NCBI GenBank assembly: GCA_020831625.1
Contig: JAFIGD010000002.1
Span: 1 to 64,000, forward strand
DNA: 64,000 nt
Direction of reading: 5' to 3'
Origin: Verrucomicrobiota bacterium
GTDB taxonomy: Bacteria > Verrucomicrobiota > Kiritimatiellia > SS1-B-03-39 > UBA6053
Shown here: piece by piece, positions 1 to 41,728 of the stretch
Numbering within the stretch: the stretch's first letter is position 1
Layout of the letters: every line of letters starts with the position of its first letter
Notes under the pieces: generated by a model
What the model was told of the DNA's origin: nothing
What the model saw: only the letters and a program-made list of their open reading frames with translations
Database searches by the model: none
Program-made: the position numbers and the translations under genes

Positions 1-566
1 ATTTCCAATTGATCGGGCACGGTTCCGCTTTCCTGGAGGTCCTCCAACTGCGCCTCGGACATGCCCAGCAGCAACAGTTTGTCCCGGGTTTCGCGGGTTT
101 GCAGATATTCGCGCTGGCCCGCGATGAGTTCGGGACTGTAGAGATCGAGCAGGGCCGTTCCTTTGGTAACGGTTTCGCCGGGCTCGAAGATATGCAGCGT
201 TTCGATCCGGCCCGCCGCACGGGCGGTGACCACACGTACGCCGGCTTCGTCGAACGCGGTGATGCCGTTCAGGCGCAGCACCCGGGTGGCCTGCACGCGG
301 CGCACGGGGGCGGTCTGCACACGCAGCAGCTCGCGGTTGCGTTCGCTCAGACGCAGACCGGCGGCGGGGGCGTCGGCATCGGCTTCGTCCTCCTCCACCA
401 GCGGCATGCCGCAGATGGGACAACTGTCCGGTCCGGGTCGCCGTACCTGCGGGTGCATGGGGCAGACGTATTCGGCGGCGAAAACGGGTAGGAAAAAAAT
501 CAGTCCGATCAGACGGATCAGTCGGATCGGTCGGATCGGTCGGAGGGGGGCGTTGGGCAGGTTCAT
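1..566 (-). CDS. CusB-like efflux RND periplasmic adaptor, partial (3' end off the left edge)
   Basis: Periplasmic adaptor of a heavy-metal RND efflux pump that would link a CusA-like pump to the TolC-like channel encoded just upstream. About 188 codons are visible. After a signal peptide the mature start holds a heavy-metal-binding domain (CPMHPQVRRPGPDSCPICGM), typical of CusB proteins that carry a Cu/Ag-binding N-terminus. A membrane-fusion barrel and hairpin region follows (AGRIETLHIFEPGETV, then a Gln/Glu/Leu-rich helix). The ATG at 564-566 overlaps the TGA of the channel gene (ATGA), so translation is probably coupled. Oddity: the positively charged part of the signal peptide (RPIRPIRLIRLIGLI) is encoded by a 9-nt repeat array. 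The pump gene itself is presumably beyond the left edge. The family call is firm; the metal specificity is inferred. Confidence 0.88.
   Translation of the reverse strand, partial: MNLPNAPLRPIRPIRLIRLIGLIFFLPVFAAEYVCPMHPQVRRPGPDSCPICGMPLVEEDEADADAPAAGLRLSERNRELLRVQTAPVRRVQATRVLRLNGITAFDEAGVRVVTARAAGRIETLHIFEPGETVTKGTALLDLYSPELIAGQREYLQTRETRDKLLLLGMSEAQLEDLQESGTVPDQLE
504..548. repeat. 9-nt periodic array, family A, translated in the CusB signal peptide
   Basis: Five consecutive 9-mers with consensus TCGGATCGG begin 18 bp past the channel-gene stop (minus direction). They lie inside the start of the adaptor gene and encode Arg-Pro-Ile and Arg-Leu-Ile triplets. Two of the units are identical. 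Confidence 0.85.
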
Positions 567-1765
567 GGTGTGGTACTCCAGTCAAAGGTGAAGCCAAGGG
601 TTTCGAGGCCCGCGGCGGCGCGGAGCGCGTCGCGGCGGGCGAAGATTTCGGAAAGGCGGAGCTGGAGGAGGCGGTCCTCGGCCTCCAGCAGGTCGGTGAA
701 AGGCGCGTTGCCGGCGCGGTAGGCGTCGCGGGTGACCGCGAGGGTGTTTTCGGCGCGGGGCAGCAAATCCTCGCGCACAAAAGTCAGGCGGCGGCGGGCG
801 TCGGCCAGATCGGCCCGGAGCATGTGCAGCTCCGCGTCCTGCATGTCCTCCATCGACAGCGCTTCCGCGGCGGCGGCGGCCTGACGGGCCTCGGCACGTT
901 CGATGCGCGCCCGGTTTTTGCCCGGCCAAAGCGGTATGGAGAGACCCACGCTGGCCATGGTGGCATCCTCTCCCATGCCCATGCCACCGGAGGGCGCAAA
1001 TTCCTGCTCGAGCATTAGCATGACCATGGGACGCCGCTCGGTCCGGACCATGCGCGCCTCGGAGTCGGCCATGGCCTGCATGGCGGAGGCGAGGCGTAGG
1101 GTTGGGGTCTGATCCGACCGATCCGACCGATCCGTCGGATCAGTCGGATCGGGCAGGGTCAGGGGGGCCCCGGGGTCGGTGCGGGCGATGCGGGTGAGGG
1201 CGGCGGCCATGCCGTTGCGGCGGGATTTCAGGGTTTCGAGGGTGTCGCCCGCCATGGCGAGACGGTCCTGAGCGCGCCAGAGGTCGCGGGCGGGGGCTCC
1301 GGCGCGGACGCGGATTTGAGCGGTGGCCAGCAGGTCTTCCCAGAGGCCGATGCGCTCCTGTTGCAGGGCGGTTTCCGCGTCCAGGGCGGCGAGATCGGCC
1401 CAGCGGCGAATGACCTCGCCGCGCAGGCGGACGCGGAGTTGATCCTGGCGGGCCCGGGCGGCGTCGGTTTCAGCGCGGGACATTTGCTGTCGGGCGTCGC
1501 GCATGCCCCGGGCGGGGAACGTTTGGCTGATGCCAATGCGGCGGAGGTCGGTTTCCCCGCCCATGGTTTCGAACATGGCCGAGACTTCGGGGTCCGGGAG
1601 GGCGCGGGCGAGAGGGCGGCCGGCGTCCGCGGCGTCCACCGAGGCGGCGGCGGCGTGGAGGTCGGGGTTGCGGGTTTCCATGAGATTGAGGAAGTCCGGC
1701 AGGGAAAGGGGCTCCGCCTGCGCAAGCAGGGGCAGGAGGCCCAGGAGGAGGGGGAGTGTTTTCAT
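563..1765 (-). CDS. TolC-like outer membrane efflux channel (CusC-type)
   Basis: Outer membrane factor that would export metal ions with the adjacent adaptor. The protein is 400 aa, within the usual family range. The start is taken at the ATG at 1763-1765 because it opens a clean signal peptide (MKTLPLLLGLLPLLAQA). An upstream in-frame ATG would only add Asp/Ser-rich residues encoded by a repeat array. Long Ala/Arg/Leu heptad helices alternate with short strands (VGLSIPLWPGKNRARIERAE, then RAGNAPFTDLLEAEDRLLQL), as in both halves of OEP-family proteins. Mid-protein there is a DPTDPTDRSDRSDQ stretch encoded by a second copy of the repeat family inserted in frame. It follows the YHS-like gene and overlaps the adaptor start by 3 bases. 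Confidence 0.88.
   Translation of the reverse strand: MKTLPLLLGLLPLLAQAEPLSLPDFLNLMETRNPDLHAAAASVDAADAGRPLARALPDPEVSAMFETMGGETDLRRIGISQTFPARGMRDARQQMSRAETDAARARQDQLRVRLRGEVIRRWADLAALDAETALQQERIGLWEDLLATAQIRVRAGAPARDLWRAQDRLAMAGDTLETLKSRRNGMAAALTRIARTDPGAPLTLPDPTDPTDRSDRSDQTPTLRLASAMQAMADSEARMVRTERRPMVMLMLEQEFAPSGGMGMGEDATMASVGLSIPLWPGKNRARIERAEARQAAAAAEALSMEDMQDAELHMLRADLADARRRLTFVREDLLPRAENTLAVTRDAYRAGNAPFTDLLEAEDRLLQLRLSEIFARRDALRAAAGLETLGFTFDWSTTP
1111..1150. repeat. 9-nt periodic array, family A, in frame inside the channel gene
   Basis: Consecutive 9-mers begin GATCCGACC, GATCCGACC, GATCCGTCG and GATCAGTCG. The array folds as an inverted repeat: a 14-base arm at 1120-1133 and its near-complement at 1137-1150 (one mismatch), with a 3-base loop. 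Because the unit is 9 nt the reading frame is kept, and the array is translated as alternating Asp with Pro, Ser, Thr and Arg. Confidence 0.85.
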
Positions 1766-1774
1766 GAGCTTCAA

Positions 1775-1842
1775 GGGGTCGGACTCGTCTGACCCGTGGG
1801 ACCCGTCGGACGGGTCGAACGAGTCGGACGGGTCCGACCGGC
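1775..1842. repeat. 9-nt periodic inverted array, family A, between the YHS-like and channel genes
   Basis: Seven 9-mers close to TCGGACGGG fill the gap between the YHS-like stop (1845) and the channel start (1765). The left half is nearly the reverse complement of the right half, so the whole spacer can fold. The centre holds the perfect hairpin GACCCGTC-G-GACGGGTC. It could act as an intra-operon attenuator or mRNA-stability element, but no U tract is present. Confidence 0.85.
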
Positions 1843-1844
1843 TT

Positions 1845-2135
1845 TCAGTCTTGCGAGGGTTTCGGAGCTTCTTCGCTGGCGTCCTCAATTAGCTTGAGGT
1901 ATTTAGCCGGGTCGCGGTTGAAGCGGGGGAGGCATCCGCGGCAGCAGAAGCGCACTTCGGTGCCCTCGTGCTGGTGGATGTATGGGCCGCCCATGGAATC
2001 GAGTTTCGCGCCGGAAATGACGCAGGTTTCCAAGGGGTAGGCTTCGGCGGCTTCGGCCGGGTCGCCGTGGTCGTGATCCTCATGCGCGAATACGGCCAAG
2101 GGCAGCAGGAGCAGGGACAAGAGTAGAATTTTCAT
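1845..2135 (-). CDS. Secreted YHS/TRASH-like metal-binding protein
   Basis: A 96-aa exported protein with a clear signal peptide (MKILLLSLLLLPLAVFA). A His/Asp-rich mature N-terminus (HEDHDHGD) is followed by a compact Cys domain (CVISGAKLDSMGG, then FCCRGCLPRFNRDPAKYL). The pattern resembles YHS/TRASH domains that bind copper or other soft metals; CCRGC plus the earlier Cys would be ligands. It sits just upstream of the channel and adaptor genes, which supports a periplasmic metal chaperone or sensor role. That role is inferred from domain likeness and context. Confidence 0.75.
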   Translation of the reverse strand: MKILLLSLLLLPLAVFAHEDHDHGDPAEAAEAYPLETCVISGAKLDSMGGPYIHQHEGTEVRFCCRGCLPRFNRDPAKYLKLIEDASEEAPKPSQD

Positions 2136-2176
2136 AATGGGTTATCTTTCGAGTTATACGTTTTTTAGGGGAATTG

Positions 2177-2200
2177 CCCGCGCCGGTTTTCCGGCGCGGG
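2177..2200 (-). terminator. Strong hairpin between the repeat-protein and YHS-like genes
   Basis: A perfect 10-bp stem (CCCGCGCCGG and its complement) closes a 4-base loop 18 bases past the stop of the repeat-protein gene. There is no U tract on the minus-strand RNA, so it may be a processing or stability hairpin that lowers downstream expression rather than a classical terminator. Confidence 0.5.
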
Positions 2201-2217
2201 CGGATTCGGGTTGGGTG

Positions 2218-2670
2218 TTAGAAGCGGCGTTTTACGCCGCCGGCCCGTCGTGTGGACGGTTCGCGGGTGTCCGGGGTCAAATCGGACGCGATTTCAGGTC
2301 TGCTCCGCTGCAACAGCCCCCGTTTCACGCCTCCGGCGCGCGGAACGGTGGCGCGGACGGGTGTGGATGAACGGGTTTCACTCCTCACGTCCCCGGGCTC
2401 TGAGGCTTGAGGGGAGCGTGCGGAATGCGAATGCAGTCGATTTCGTTTGACCCCGCCCGCTCTGCGGTCACGGGTTTCGGGACTCTCTCTCCGTTCGCGG
2501 TTCCATTGAAAGTTCCGTCTTGCGCCACCCGCGCGGCGGTATCGCACTCCGGACACGGTTTGTGTCGTGGCGGGATTTGCCGGGGATTGGGGTTGAACGG
2601 GGGAGGTCTCCGCCAGAAGAAGGGTGGCGGGTGCGAGGGCAAGAGCCCAGAGGGTGCGTTTGATTTTCAT
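2218..2670 (-). CDS. Secreted Arg-rich protein with four RRAGGVKR-type repeats, unknown function
   Basis: I do not recognise this 150-aa protein. A signal peptide (MKIKRTLWALALAPATLLLA) precedes a very basic, Ser/Pro/Glu/Thr-rich, probably disordered chain. Four copies of one motif occur: RRAGGARR at about residue 45, RRAGGVKR at 69, RAGGVKR at 111, and RRAGGVKR at 141, ending at the C-terminus (RRF). Codons for the motif differ from copy to copy (for example GGCGGCGTAAAA, GGAGGCGTGAAA and GGCGGGGTCAAA for GGVK), so the peptide and not the DNA appears conserved. Each core is bracketed by dibasic pairs, which could be protease sites. A good Shine-Dalgarno (GGAG, 7-nt spacing) supports the start. 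It lies upstream of metal-efflux genes on the same strand. Coding reality is likely; function is unknown. Confidence 0.7.
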   Translation of the reverse strand: MKIKRTLWALALAPATLLLAETSPVQPQSPANPATTQTVSGVRYRRAGGARRNFQWNRERRESPETRDRRAGGVKRNRLHSHSARSPQASEPGDVRSETRSSTPVRATVPRAGGVKRGLLQRSRPEIASDLTPDTREPSTRRAGGVKRRF

Positions 2671-2750: not shown

Positions 2751-3131
2751 TCAACACCGCCAAATTTGGAGAGAGGCCGCGCCGGTGCGCGGAGTGGCGT
2801 TTCCGAGGTTCGGAAAACGCGGGAGGACTTTTTCCGAGTCTCGGAAAAGGGTGGTGGTATCCTCGCGGGTGTGGAGGAGAGCGGTCAGGGGGGCGCGCGG
2901 GGCGGCGGGCGGGGGTGTGAGGATGCCGGGCGCTTCTTCATCCGCGCTCTGTATCGTGCAGCCACATTCGTGGGCCGGTATGGCCGACGGGTCGGCGCAA
3001 CAGGTGATTTCCACTGCGGGGCTGTGGCAGCAGGTGTGCGTTGTCCATAGGGTCCCGCAATCGGAGGCCGACGCCTGACTTGCCGTCAGGCTGAGGAGGA
3101 TGCCGATTAAGATGGAGGCGAATGCTTTCAC
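2751..3131 (-). CDS. Small Cys-rich exported protein, unknown function
   Basis: With the GTG at 3129-3131 the product is about 126 aa and starts with a signal peptide (VKAFASILIGILLSLTASQA). An upstream ATG (3212) in the same frame would place a less typical leader before it. The mature N-terminus is Cys-rich (CGTLWTTHTCCHSP, CCADPSAIPAHECGC): eight Cys in about 35 residues, with His nearby, suggesting metal or disulfide chemistry. The C-terminal half is Pro/Thr/Arg-rich and low complexity. It is the first gene of the minus-strand metal locus. The start codon is uncertain and no family is recognised. Confidence 0.55.
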   Translation of the reverse strand: MKAFASILIGILLSLTASQASASDCGTLWTTHTCCHSPAVEITCCADPSAIPAHECGCTIQSADEEAPGILTPPPAAPRAPLTALLHTREDTTTLFRDSEKVLPRFPNLGNATPRTGAASLQIWRC

Positions 3132-3206: not shown

Positions 3207-3245
3207 CATCATTAAAATACATCATTAAAATACCTGCTATTTTAA
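3207..3245. promoter_or_regulatory. Operator-like dyad with tandem half-sites (site A)
   Basis: A perfect inverted repeat TTAAAATA-N5-TATTTTAA spans 3225-3245. An extra copy of the half-site lies directly beside it because the 13-mer CATCATTAAAATA is tandemly repeated at 3207-3232. It sits between the divergent Cys-rich gene (minus) and the decarboxylase-family gene (plus). Read on the minus strand, it matches the dyad at 46466-46486 in 20 of 21 bases, which argues for one regulator. Confidence 0.65.
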
Positions 3246-35421: not shown

Positions 35422-38244
35422 TCAGCCGAGGAGATCTCCTATGGTGGCGAGGGCGTCGTCGAGTTTGGCGGGGTCTTTGCCGCCGGCCTGGGCGCGGTCG
35501 GCTTTGCCGCCGCCGCCGCCGCCGCATTGCTTGGCGAGGGCGCCGGCGAGCTTGCCGGCGTGAACGCCGCTGGCCTGGCAGGCTTCGGCGACTGAGACGT
35601 TGAAGAAGACTTTGCCGTCCTCACTTCCGGCAAGGACGATGACGGCGGGATCGAGTTGGACGCGCAGACCGTCCATGGCTTCGCGGAGTCCGTTGGCGTC
35701 GACGCCGTCGAGGCGGGCGGCGAGGACCTTCATGCCGTTGATGTCCTGCACCTGCGAGGTGAGGTCGGCGGCTTTGCCGCGCGCGGCGGCGGACTTGAGG
35801 TCTTTGAGTTCTTTTTCGAGGTCGCGGACTTTGGCCAGAAGGGTGTCGAGCCGGGCGGGAGCCTCTTCGGGTTTGACGCTGAGGCTGCCGGCGATGCGGC
35901 TGAGGAGGGCGTGCTCGCGGGCGGTGACCTCGCGGGCGGGACTGCCGCAGACGGCTTCGATGCGGCGCACCCCGGCGGAAATGCTACTTTCGGCGACGAG
36001 GCGGATCTGGCCGATCTCCCCGACGCGCTCAACATGGGTGCCGCCGCAGAGTTCTTTGCTCCAGCCGCCGATGTCGACGACGCGCACGGTGTTGCCGTAT
36101 TTCTCGCCGAAGACGGCGATGACATCGTCGGGCTTGTCTTCGAAGGCGGTTTCGAAGGTGATCACGGGCTGATCGGCGAAGAGCTGTTCGTTGACGAGGC
36201 GTTCGATCTCCTGAAGCTGGTCGGCGCCAAGGGCTTCGAAGTGGTTGAAGTCGAAGCGGAGGCGGTCGGGCCCCACAAAGGAGCCGGCCTGGCGGACGTG
36301 GTCGCCGAGGGTTTCGCGCAGGGCCCAGTTGAGAATGTGGGTGGCGGAGTGATGGCGCTGGATGTCGCGGCGGCGGGGAATGTCGAGGCTGAGGAAAACC
36401 TCCTGTCCGGGTTCAAAGGCGGTGTCGCCCTCGATGCGGTGCAGGTGGCGGTCGGAAGCGTCTTTGACGCAGTCGAGCAGGCGGGTGACGGTTCTGCCGG
36501 CGTCGACCTGACCCCGGTCGCCAATCTGTCCGCCCATTTCGGCGTAAAAGGGGGTGGATTCGGTGACGAGGAAGCGCTTGCCGTCGTTGGCTTCGACGAC
36601 GGTGACGACGCGGGTGGCGTGGCGGGTCCAGTTGGCGGGATCGAAACCGATAAATTCGGTGGCGTCGCCCTCATCGCCGGCGACGGTGATGACGCTTTTC
36701 TTCTGAGCGTCGCGGGCGCGCTGGCGTTGATCCGCCATAGCATCTTCAAAAGCTGCATGGTCCACGGCCAAACCGTGTTCACGCGCTATAATATCTGTTA
36801 AATCCAACGGAAATCCATATGTATCATATAGAGTAAATGCAAGGCTGCCGGAAACCTTGGATGCGGGTTTATTTCCTTCAATCCATAATGATTTAAGGCC
36901 TCTCAGCTCTTCGGTAGCTCCGTTTTCGTATTCAACTACCATTAAATTGGCATACTCTTCAGGACAATCTGGGTAAATTGCTGCAGCTTGATCGATTCTA
37001 TGCATTTCATTTTCGCGTTCGCGGAAATTAATGAAATCCAAAAACATTTTCATTCCTTGATCCAAGGTTCGATCGAAGGCTGCTTCCTCGGCGGCGATGA
37101 CCTTGCGGATGATGTCTTCGTTTTTCCGAAGTTCGGAAAAGGTGCCGCCGAGATTTCCGAGGGTCGGAACGACGAGTTCGGCGAAGAATCCGGGTTTGAG
37201 ATTGAGGCGGCGGCCGTACATGACGGCGCGGCGGAGGATGCGGCGGAGGACGTAGTTGCGGCCCTCGTTGCCGGGGAGAATGCCGTCGGCGATGGCGCAG
37301 CAGAGAGTGCGGATGTGGTCGCCGAGTACGCGGAACACGATATCGCGCTCTTCTTCGGGAGTGGGTTTCGACGGGTCCACAGGGAGGGTGGCTCCGTAGC
37401 TTAGACCGGAGAGTTCCTCAATGACGGCGAAGATGCCGTGGAAGAGGTCGGCGTTGTAGTTGCTGGGCGGTTTGGAGAAATCGGTGAAGTTTTGGGTGGT
37501 GGCGAGGATGCCGGCGACGCGTTCGAAGCCCATGCCGGTGTCCACATGTTTGGCGGCGAGGGGCACAAAGCGTCCGTCTTCGGTGGCGTTGTACTGCATG
37601 AAGACGAGGTTCCAGATTTCGATGCACCAGGGGGAGTCGGCGTTGACGAGTTTGCCGCCGGAGTCGCCGTTGGGGGTGAGGTCGATGTGGATTTCGGAGC
37701 AGGGGCCGCAGGGGCCGGTGTCGCCCATCATCCAGAAGTTGTCTTTTTTGTTGCCGAAGACGATGCGTTCGGCGGGGTCGAGACCCTCTTTTTCGAAGAG
37801 GTTTTTCCAGAGGTCGTAGGCTTCCTGATCGAATTCGGCGGGGTCGCCTTCGCCGGGTTTGTAGACAGAGGCGTAGAGGCGGTTTTTGGGGAAGCCCCAG
37901 ACGGTGGTGAGGAGTTCCCAGGCCCATTCGATGGCTTCGGCCTTGAAATAGTCGCCGAAGGACCAGTTGCCGAGCATTTCGAAGAAGGTTTGGTGGTAGG
38001 TGTCGTAACCGACGTCATCGAGGTCGTTGTGTTTGCCGCCGGCGCGGATGCACTTCTGGGTGTCGGCGACGCGGGGGTGGGGGGCGTCGCGTTCACCGAG
38101 GAAGTAGGGCACGAAGGGGTTCATGCCGGCGTTGGTGAAGAGCAGGTTGGGGGAGGAGGGCAGCAGCGGGGCGGAGGGGACGATGTGGTGTCCCTTGGCG
38201 GCGAAGAAATCGAGAAAGCTTTGGCGGACGTCGTTGGAGGTCAT
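35422..38244 (-). CDS. alaS: Alanine--tRNA ligase
   Basis: Charges tRNA-Ala and edits mis-acylated tRNA. 940 aa, slightly longer than the usual 870-880. Class II catalytic core at the N-terminus (FLDFFAAKGHHIVPSAPLLP; TNAGMNPFVPYFLG), tRNA-binding region, editing domain with zinc/active-site His and Cys (RHHSATHILNWAL; KELCGGTHVERVGEIGQ), and C-Ala domain ending in a Gly-rich stretch (CGGGGGGKADRAQAGGKDP). Oddity: residues about 390-490 are encoded by DNA of about 40% GC in a gene otherwise near 60-70%. Much of the extra length lies there. Single-copy housekeeping gene; the call is firm. Confidence 0.97.
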   Translation of the reverse strand: MTSNDVRQSFLDFFAAKGHHIVPSAPLLPSSPNLLFTNAGMNPFVPYFLGERDAPHPRVADTQKCIRAGGKHNDLDDVGYDTYHQTFFEMLGNWSFGDYFKAEAIEWAWELLTTVWGFPKNRLYASVYKPGEGDPAEFDQEAYDLWKNLFEKEGLDPAERIVFGNKKDNFWMMGDTGPCGPCSEIHIDLTPNGDSGGKLVNADSPWCIEIWNLVFMQYNATEDGRFVPLAAKHVDTGMGFERVAGILATTQNFTDFSKPPSNYNADLFHGIFAVIEELSGLSYGATLPVDPSKPTPEEERDIVFRVLGDHIRTLCCAIADGILPGNEGRNYVLRRILRRAVMYGRRLNLKPGFFAELVVPTLGNLGGTFSELRKNEDIIRKVIAAEEAAFDRTLDQGMKMFLDFINFRERENEMHRIDQAAAIYPDCPEEYANLMVVEYENGATEELRGLKSLWIEGNKPASKVSGSLAFTLYDTYGFPLDLTDIIAREHGLAVDHAAFEDAMADQRQRARDAQKKSVITVAGDEGDATEFIGFDPANWTRHATRVVTVVEANDGKRFLVTESTPFYAEMGGQIGDRGQVDAGRTVTRLLDCVKDASDRHLHRIEGDTAFEPGQEVFLSLDIPRRRDIQRHHSATHILNWALRETLGDHVRQAGSFVGPDRLRFDFNHFEALGADQLQEIERLVNEQLFADQPVITFETAFEDKPDDVIAVFGEKYGNTVRVVDIGGWSKELCGGTHVERVGEIGQIRLVAESSISAGVRRIEAVCGSPAREVTAREHALLSRIAGSLSVKPEEAPARLDTLLAKVRDLEKELKDLKSAAARGKAADLTSQVQDINGMKVLAARLDGVDANGLREAMDGLRVQLDPAVIVLAGSEDGKVFFNVSVAEACQASGVHAGKLAGALAKQCGGGGGGKADRAQAGGKDPAKLDDALATIGDLLG
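36781..37080 (-). other. Low-GC patch inside alaS
   Basis: By hand count, 36781-37080 is about 40% GC, against 62-70% in the 60-base blocks I counted on either side. The reading frame is intact. It encodes an Asn/Glu/Ile-rich segment (EEYANLMVVEYENGATEEL) that joins smoothly to the conserved KVSGSLAFTLYDTYGFPLD. Confidence 0.75.
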
Positions 38245-40096: not shown

Positions 40097-41728
40097 AGCC
40101 CCCGGGTAGGCCGCCAGGCTCTCCGCCAATCCGCCTTCGAGGTTGTGTTTTAGCCAGAGGCGGGCGTGTTCGGATTTGGCTTCGGGGAGGGTGTTGAGGG
40201 GGGCTTTCAGGCCGATGCGGATGGCGAGGTCGAGGTTGCGGCGGGTTTGACGCCAGGCATCGGTTTCGCGGTCGGCTTCAGGCAGCGCGTGGAGGTGGTC
40301 GAGGGCTTGGTGGAGCTGCGCGTCAGTGAGGTCGGGGGGGCGTTTGCCGAGGAAGCACTTAAAGAGGGCGTTGCTGTTGTTGGGGCGGATGCCGGTGGTT
40401 TCGCTGACGCGGCCGAGGGCGAGCCAGCGTTCGGTGGTGCCGGGTGTGTTGTCGAAGGCGCACTGATCGCACCAGCGGGCGGCGGCCTCGGGGGTGGCGG
40501 TGTCGGGGTTCCAGGCGCAGAGCCCGGCCCAGGCGAGGGCGGGTCCGGTGACCGGCTCCTGCTGGAGGTGGCCGCAGTCGCCCCAGTCGGTGAGCAGCAG
40601 GCCGGCGGCACCGCGGGCGGCGGCGTGTTCGGCGGCCTGGCGGATGTTGGCGAGCATGTTGTCGGTGCGGCCGCCGAAACTGCGCCAGGAGGAGGAGCCG
40701 GGGCAGACGAGGAAGTCGAGGTCGGAGTCCGCGAAGGTGCGGAGATGCGCGTCGAAGGGATGACCGTCCTCATAGCCCCATTCGAGGGCGACGGCTTCGG
40801 GGGGCAGGCCGTGGAGCTGTTCGGGATGGGTGTTGAGGATATCGCCCCAGAACTCGGGACGCTTGCCGTGATGTTCAAGAACGTGATCCATGATCTTCCG
40901 GACGAAACCGGTGTAAACGGCGGCGGCGCCTTCGCGTTCGCAGCGGGTTTTACTCGCACCCTGGCCGAGTTCAAAGGTTTCATCGCAGCCGATGTTGACG
41001 CGGGGGGCCTTGAAAAGCGGCAGGAGTTCGTCCAGGAGGCCGAGGACAAGATCGAGGGAGGCCTGATCGGGTTTCAGCACGGAGCCGCAGGTGCGGCGGT
41101 CTCCCCAGGGGGTGACGAAACCATCGGGGCTTTCGGCGTACTGACGGTAGGCGGGGTGCTTGATCCAGCGTTCGAAGTGGCCGAAGCAGTTCTGGTTGGG
41201 CACGAGGGTGATGCCGCGGGCGGCGCAGCGGTCCTGCAGCCAGAGGATGTCTTCGGGGGTCATGGGCGAACTGTCCGCCCAGACGGTGCGGTGGTCGCGG
41301 TAGGCGAAGGTGTGTTCGGTGTAGAGCTGGAGTTCGTTGAAGCGGAAGGCGGCGAGGAGATCGACCCAGCGGGCGAGCCCCCCGCGGGTGGGGACTTTGC
41401 AGCGGCTGATGTCGAGCATGAAGCCGCGGCGGGCGAGCGCGGGGGCGTCTTCGAGCATGCCGGCGGGCGTGGCTTCGGGGGCATTGCCCTGCCATTGACG
41501 GAGATGATCCAGCGCATACGGCAGGGCGGCTTCGCCGCCGATTTCGAGGGTTTTCCGATGTTCGGAAAGTTCGATGCGGTAGGCTTCCGAACTTCGGAAA
41601 ACGCCGGCGGCGTCGAAGGGACGGGCGATTGCGCGCAGGGCCTCGGGGTCGGCGAGGCTGCGGGTGTCGACGGTGCCGGGAAGGGGCTGGAAGCTGCGGG
41701 GTTTCGGGGAAAAGACCAGCATAGACAT
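40079..41728 (-). CDS. Glycoside hydrolase family 20-like enzyme
   Basis: A 549-aa cytoplasmic (no signal peptide) beta-hexosaminidase-like protein. The catalytic (beta/alpha)8 domain shows strands typical of GH20: RRGFMLDISRCKVPTRGGL, NELQLYTEHTFAYRDH, GITLVPNQNCFGHFERW, and the acidic pair in VNIGCDETFELGQG, where Asp-Glu would be the catalytic dyad. Further on, EFWGDILNTHPE and LLLTDWGDCGHLQQ line the pocket. An N-terminal 100-residue domain precedes it. Start: ATG 41728 or 41722; longer readings overlap the divergent lipoprotein. The last residues (VDLVD) come from the GTGGAC array. Confidence 0.8.
   Translation of the reverse strand: MSMLVFSPKPRSFQPLPGTVDTRSLADPEALRAIARPFDAAGVFRSSEAYRIELSEHRKTLEIGGEAALPYALDHLRQWQGNAPEATPAGMLEDAPALARRGFMLDISRCKVPTRGGLARWVDLLAAFRFNELQLYTEHTFAYRDHRTVWADSSPMTPEDILWLQDRCAARGITLVPNQNCFGHFERWIKHPAYRQYAESPDGFVTPWGDRRTCGSVLKPDQASLDLVLGLLDELLPLFKAPRVNIGCDETFELGQGASKTRCEREGAAAVYTGFVRKIMDHVLEHHGKRPEFWGDILNTHPEQLHGLPPEAVALEWGYEDGHPFDAHLRTFADSDLDFLVCPGSSSWRSFGGRTDNMLANIRQAAEHAAARGAAGLLLTDWGDCGHLQQEPVTGPALAWAGLCAWNPDTATPEAAARWCDQCAFDNTPGTTERWLALGRVSETTGIRPNNSNALFKCFLGKRPPDLTDAQLHQALDHLHALPEADRETDAWRQTRRNLDLAIRIGLKAPLNTLPEAKSEHARLWLKHNLEGGLAESLAAYPGAVDLVD

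Follow-up and report, generated by a model that had tools for sequence, protein, structure and literature searches.

A repeat-containing, arginine-rich and probably exported protein, with a conserved stem-loop behind its gene, in a metal-efflux operon of a Verrucomicrobiota bacterium

Some of the small exported proteins encoded in bacterial metal operons, such as CutF and CruR, are nascent-chain metal sensors. Here, we ask what a small protein with four RAGGVKR-type motifs, encoded among metal-efflux genes of a Verrucomicrobiota bacterium, might do in such a position. The stretch of DNA analyzed, referred to as the window, comprises 64,000 nucleotides of contig JAFIGD010000002.1.

The RAGGVKR protein and selection on its motifs

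The RAGGVKR gene (2218..2670, minus strand) is an ORF for 150 amino acids that starts with an ATG preceded by a GGAG Shine-Dalgarno sequence (TTAGGAGACACCTATG). A single ortholog is present at L051:10001-10456 in G001, another genome of this genus (contig JAFIGC010000047.1, Verrucomicrobia bacterium isolate BM_Day0_Bin.15), and start site and Shine-Dalgarno sequence are conserved between the two genes. Both proteins have, as judged by eye, a signal-like N-terminus (MKIK.T.WALAL...A|E), from which export appears probable. With this stretch taken off, also by eye, the mature protein has a pI of about 12, 26 Arg among 129 residues, no Cys and no Met, and contains two His residues in the window protein and one in the ortholog. 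AlphaFold2, run on the alignment of the two sequences, gave a mean pLDDT of 48, a pTM of 0.10 and no residue above 70; the protein is predicted to be disordered, although a prediction from two sequences is weak. These predictions support the description, in the initial annotation, of a signal-bearing and otherwise disordered chain. The aromatic C-terminus (RRF/SRW) was considered as an outer-membrane beta-signal and rejected as such, the hydrophobic residue expected at -2 being absent and the chain too short.

The four copies of RAGG(V/A)(K/R)R in the window protein are encoded by differing codons on the minus strand and read RRAGGARR (2515..2538; residues 45-52), RRAGGVKR (2443..2466; residues 69-76), PRAGGVKR (2320..2343; residues 110-117) and RRAGGVKR (2227..2250; residues 141-148). 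Summed over all pairs, the copies show 33 synonymous and 11 nonsynonymous differences, and copies 2 and 4 differ by seven synonymous and no nonsynonymous changes, confirming that the same residues are written in different codons. Two details reported earlier are corrected: the spacings are 24, 41 and 31 residues rather than 24, 42 and 30, and the last copy does not end the chain, being followed by RF before the stop codon. A degenerate DNA pattern for the motif, with one mismatch allowed, matched three times in the window, always within the RAGGVKR gene, against an expectation of 0.09. The exact pattern occurred outside the gene once in genome G000 and once in G001, similar to the reversed control. 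Because motif DNA is thus not above background elsewhere in the genome, and the window matches are confined to the gene, an interspersed DNA repeat was rejected as the source of the motifs.

The ortholog also has four motifs (RLAGGAKR, RRAGGVKS, RRAGGVKR and RRAGGVKS), and the ends of the proteins, RRAGGVKRRF in the window and RRAGGVKSRW in the ortholog, conform to a conserved RAGGVK[RS]R[FW]. Between the two genes, pS is near saturation in motifs (0.655) and linkers (0.678), while pN rises from 0.078 in motifs to 0.246 in the signal region and 0.547 in linkers; the motif dN/dS is about 0.05. Judged by this difference in pN at near-saturated pS, the motif peptide is under selection; the frame is selected, and the selection is seated on the motifs. 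The earlier proposal that selection acts on the peptide is therefore borne out by these rates, which are not those of an unselected frame, one of the two outcomes named as refuting it. The other, a lack of repeat-bearing homologs in related genomes, did not occur either: one clear ortholog with four motifs was found, although the protein is confined to two genomes of one genus.

The two genes seem to have arrived at four copies by separate routes. In G001, two stretches of 162 nucleotides are 92.6% identical (150/162), suggesting a recent internal duplication or homogenization after the split from the window lineage, whereas the halves of the window gene are about 49% identical. Because the G001 halves are near-identical while the genes of the two genomes are near saturation, the repeat number was apparently rebuilt or homogenized separately. 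We read the presence of four copies in both genes as a sign of selection for several copies, which two genes cannot prove.

Within the sets searched, the RAGGVKR protein is confined to two genomes of one genus. A single-protein query against 97 relatives, a two-row profile against 346 genomes of the class and a repeat-unit profile against 388 genomes of the phylum (three overlapping sets) gave only weak matches outside the genus, and those inspected lacked the repeat. A peptide-pattern scan of 84,980 species genomes found no relative outside the genus, exact patterns being of a kind that would miss diverged relatives. There was likewise no relative in IMG/VR, PLSDB (plasmids), PHROGs, NCBIfam, Pfam or the PDB sequences; a Pfam scan up to E = 1 had MPDZ_u10 as its sole match, at E = 0.039 and short of that family's cut-off, and a literature search for the motif string found nothing. 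The absence from named families noted in the initial annotation is thus supported (Pfam, NCBIfam, PHROGs). The protein and its ortholog form a new family of two members within a known positional class, the small exported proteins of metal operons, and no named family has defining features that are all found in it.

The metal-efflux operon and the stem-loop

In the window, the order on the coding strand is a Cys-rich exported protein (2751..3131), the RAGGVKR protein, an exported YHS-like metal-binding protein (1845..2135), an outer-membrane efflux protein of the OEP/TolC type (563..1888, with a true start probably near 1765) and a CusB-type adaptor with an HMBD domain (3..566), which is cut by the contig end; all are on the minus strand. 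In G001, the order is Cys-rich protein, RAGGVKR protein, DUF3347, YHS-DUF2231, a second Cys-rich paralogue, YHS, TolC, CusB and CusA/CzcA. A Cus-type operon therefore accompanies the RAGGVKR gene in both genomes that carry it, with the gene at the same position in each, in agreement with the proposed link to metal efflux. The gene does not open the run, as had been stated; because the Cys-rich gene lies ahead of it on the same strand, it is the second. Metal responsiveness, also raised earlier, is a guess from the association with the operon; the mature protein is devoid of Cys and Met and has one or two His residues. In G005, which belongs to a different genus of this family, the YHS gene directly adjoins the Cys-rich gene and no RAGGVKR gene separates the two. 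The G003 contig starts within a DUF2231-like gene that immediately precedes YHS; the head of the operon can therefore not be read there. G002 gave no YHS match. Short tandem stretches resembling GATCCGACCGATCCGAC occur within and between the efflux genes (window 1110-1155, 1776-1840 and 505-545); they encode Asp/Ser/Pro-rich runs (DPTDPTDRSDRSD) of the TolC-type protein, and similar runs are found in G001 and G003.

For the Cys-rich gene, a GTG start at 3131, which yields a signal-like VKAFASILIGILLSLTASQASA matching the L051 paralogue, is preferred over the ATG at 3212, which is probably wrong. The 3' part of the gene holds one of three pairs of perfect TTCCGANNNTCGGAA palindromes in the window (2801-2846, 37124-37169 and 41553-41599), which have a period of 31-32 bp and variable spacers. 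Matches to such pairs number 122, 167, 88 and 59 in the four genomes of the genus (G000-G003), and two further family members have 17 and 3; a reversed-pattern control gave 0 matches. They also fall within coding sequence, one inside alaS and another inside the Cys-rich gene. One pair shares its G002 contig with a Y1_Tnp (RAYT-like) gene, so that the pairs may be REP/REPIN elements, for which a location inside conserved coding sequence would be unusual. In four Cys-rich exported protein genes (window 2751-3131, L051:11949-12305, L082:5950-6351 and L081:2276-2698), the paired palindrome sits in the same place and encodes a C-terminal part (FRxSE....FPxxGK/N) followed by a conserved ending, LQ(I/M)WRC, which looks as though the proteins had taken up the repeat. 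The Cys-rich proteins are possible candidates for CutF-like metal sensors.

Behind the RAGGVKR gene lies a stem-loop, GCCCGCGCCGG-AAAA-CCGGCGCGGGC (2176..2201, minus strand), with an 11-bp stem and a four-base loop. Its distance from the stop codon is 16 nt in the window and 13 nt in G001, where it reads GCUCGCGCCGG-GAAA-CCGGCGCGGGC; in this comparison of two sequences, the changes are one loop base and one C-G to U-G exchange that keeps the pair. Both genomes with the RAGGVKR gene contain the core a single time, and G002, G003 and G005 do not contain it. The stem-loop is kept although the next gene is YHS in the window and DUF3347 in G001; because the next gene differs, we assign the stem-loop to the RAGGVKR gene and not to the neighbor. 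In predicted folds, it does not pair with the ribosome-binding region or Shine-Dalgarno sequence of the next gene. Being tied to the RAGGVKR gene whatever follows, it fits better with 3' protection or partial termination than with a Shine-Dalgarno switch. Considered as an intrinsic terminator, it was rejected, having no U-tract and no call from the terminator scanner. An Rfam search gave nothing at the gathering cut-off and weak sub-threshold matches only.

Explanations for the RAGGVKR protein

The explanation that we favor, with a probability of roughly 0.4, is that the RAGGVKR protein is a lineage-specific, disordered envelope (periplasmic) protein that is expressed with the Cus-type efflux operon and is multivalent via its motifs. 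The protein would be exported to the periplasm, where four short linear motifs, spaced by fast-evolving linkers of acidic, Ser, Thr and Pro residues, would dock multivalently on an anionic partner. Candidate partners are the acidic CusB, TolC or YHS protein as well as lipopolysaccharide, a sulfated polymer or another anionic surface. The YHS, TolC and CusB proteins have pI values of 4.9, 5.2 and 4.8, respectively; however, such values are common for proteins of the periplasm and are not specific. The stem-loop, in turn, would most simply shield the 3' end of the transcript of the two small leading genes, or partly terminate that transcript, so that their two proteins would be made in excess over the pump. 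This reading draws on the low pN of the motifs relative to the linkers, the retained signal-like N-terminus, the lack of confident structure in AlphaFold2, the shared operon position and the stem-loop that stays with the gene. That a copy number of four was kept through what looks like separate rebuilding or homogenization is as expected if multivalency matters. Against the multivalent envelope protein, it counts that there are two genomes only, that the disorder prediction is weak and that the hairpin and the C-terminal motif would also fit a leader peptide.

A nascent-chain regulator is the strongest alternative, albeit an unlikely one. By analogy with CutF and CruR, the RAGGVKR gene would be a leader ORF, and translation or export of its chain would be coupled through the stem-loop to the downstream metal genes. 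In Rhodobacter capsulatus, CutF is a small Sec-exported protein whose gene is followed by an intergenic mRNA stem-loop and copper genes (PMC9973294), and the present locus, with its probably exported protein, has the same layout. Similarly, CruR heads a copper-regulated operon, and its C-terminal RAPP arrest motif resembles RAGP of SecM (PMC9426467). A leader function would also agree with a hairpin that is unique in the genome and is kept at a distance of 16/13 nt from the stop codon, and with the conservation of a motif at the extreme C-terminus, the last copy lying two residues before the stop. However, the motif contains no Pro, the protein has no Cys pair, and the motif is present in four copies rather than in a single C-terminal one. 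Moreover, the failure of the hairpin to pair with the next Shine-Dalgarno sequence in predicted folds and the different downstream genes in the two genomes argue against this coupling, and the Cys-rich gene in front is a better CutF-like candidate.

Less likely still is the reading of the initial annotation, in which cleavage at dibasic pairs would free short peptides from the protein as their precursor. Multi-copy precursors are usually built in this way, as disordered exported chains in which conserved units recur between linkers free of constraint, and basic pairs flank most copies of AGGV. Nevertheless, these brackets are not strictly kept, as is evident from RLAGGAKR in copy 1 and KS as second pair in two copies of the ortholog, and from PR...KR in window copy 3. 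Furthermore, AGGV is four residues only, the operon showed neither a protease nor a modifying enzyme, and the analysis identified no dibasic-processing system of such a kind in bacteria. Finally, a spurious ORF, or an interspersed DNA repeat read as protein, is a most improbable source of the pattern: high G+C does give long spurious ORFs on both strands and the neighboring gene does contain a true DNA repeat, the paired palindrome, but the motif dN/dS at near-saturated synonymous sites, the background frequency of motif DNA elsewhere and the conserved start site and Shine-Dalgarno sequence all stand against it.

Comparison with known systems

Disordered chains in which a short basic motif recurs between fast-evolving linkers are found among AT-hook/HMGA-like and heparin-binding motif proteins. 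The RAGGVKR protein shares this arrangement of a repeated short basic motif in a disordered chain; however, it has no sequence match and is predicted to be exported rather than nuclear or nucleoid-associated. SilE is repetitive and disordered, and SilE and CusF bind metal via Met, His and Trp residues. CusF and SilE of the Cus/Sil operons are small accessory proteins that serve Cu/Ag RND efflux in the periplasm; the RAGGVKR protein would be another, but its mature part is without Met or Cys, has one or two His residues and matches neither Pfam nor NCBIfam.

The closest likeness in position is to CutF of the cutFOG operon of R. capsulatus and other CutF-like proteins, including CzcI, which are small Sec-exported proteins encoded near the head of a metal operon with a stem-loop directly behind. 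The RAGGVKR protein shares the size, the position and the stem-loop, and the signal-like N-terminus of both orthologs points to probable export. In contrast to these CutF-like proteins, the RAGGVKR protein has no CxxxC motif, the mature part of both orthologs being free of Cys, and no proline-rich C-terminus, ending instead in RRAGGVKRRF or RRAGGVKSRW after four repeats; and its stem-loop, while present and conserved, leaves the next Shine-Dalgarno sequence uncovered in predicted folds. With the CruR/DUF2946 uORFs and the RAGP/RAPP motifs of SecM and ApdA, it has in common an R-A-G close to the C-terminal end of a chain, here probably exported, that is unconserved apart from it and has operon genes downstream. 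By contrast with SecM and ApdA, RAGGV lacks Pro at the position that is essential in RAGP of YwcI (PMC10987492), and the motif is repeated along the chain; in contrast to CruR/DUF2946, there is no CXXC and, up to E = 1 in the Pfam scan, no DUF2946 match. It is conceivable, with the odds clearly against it, that the protein and its private stem-loop represent a new kind of repeat-based cis-regulator coupled to export, or of multivalent accessory, in RND metal efflux, built on a motif not used by described arrest peptides, metal chaperones or peptide precursors. Altogether, the RAGGVKR protein occupies the genomic position of CutF and CruR without their metal ligands or stall motifs, and has in their stead a repeated peptide that is strongly selected and a private, conserved hairpin.
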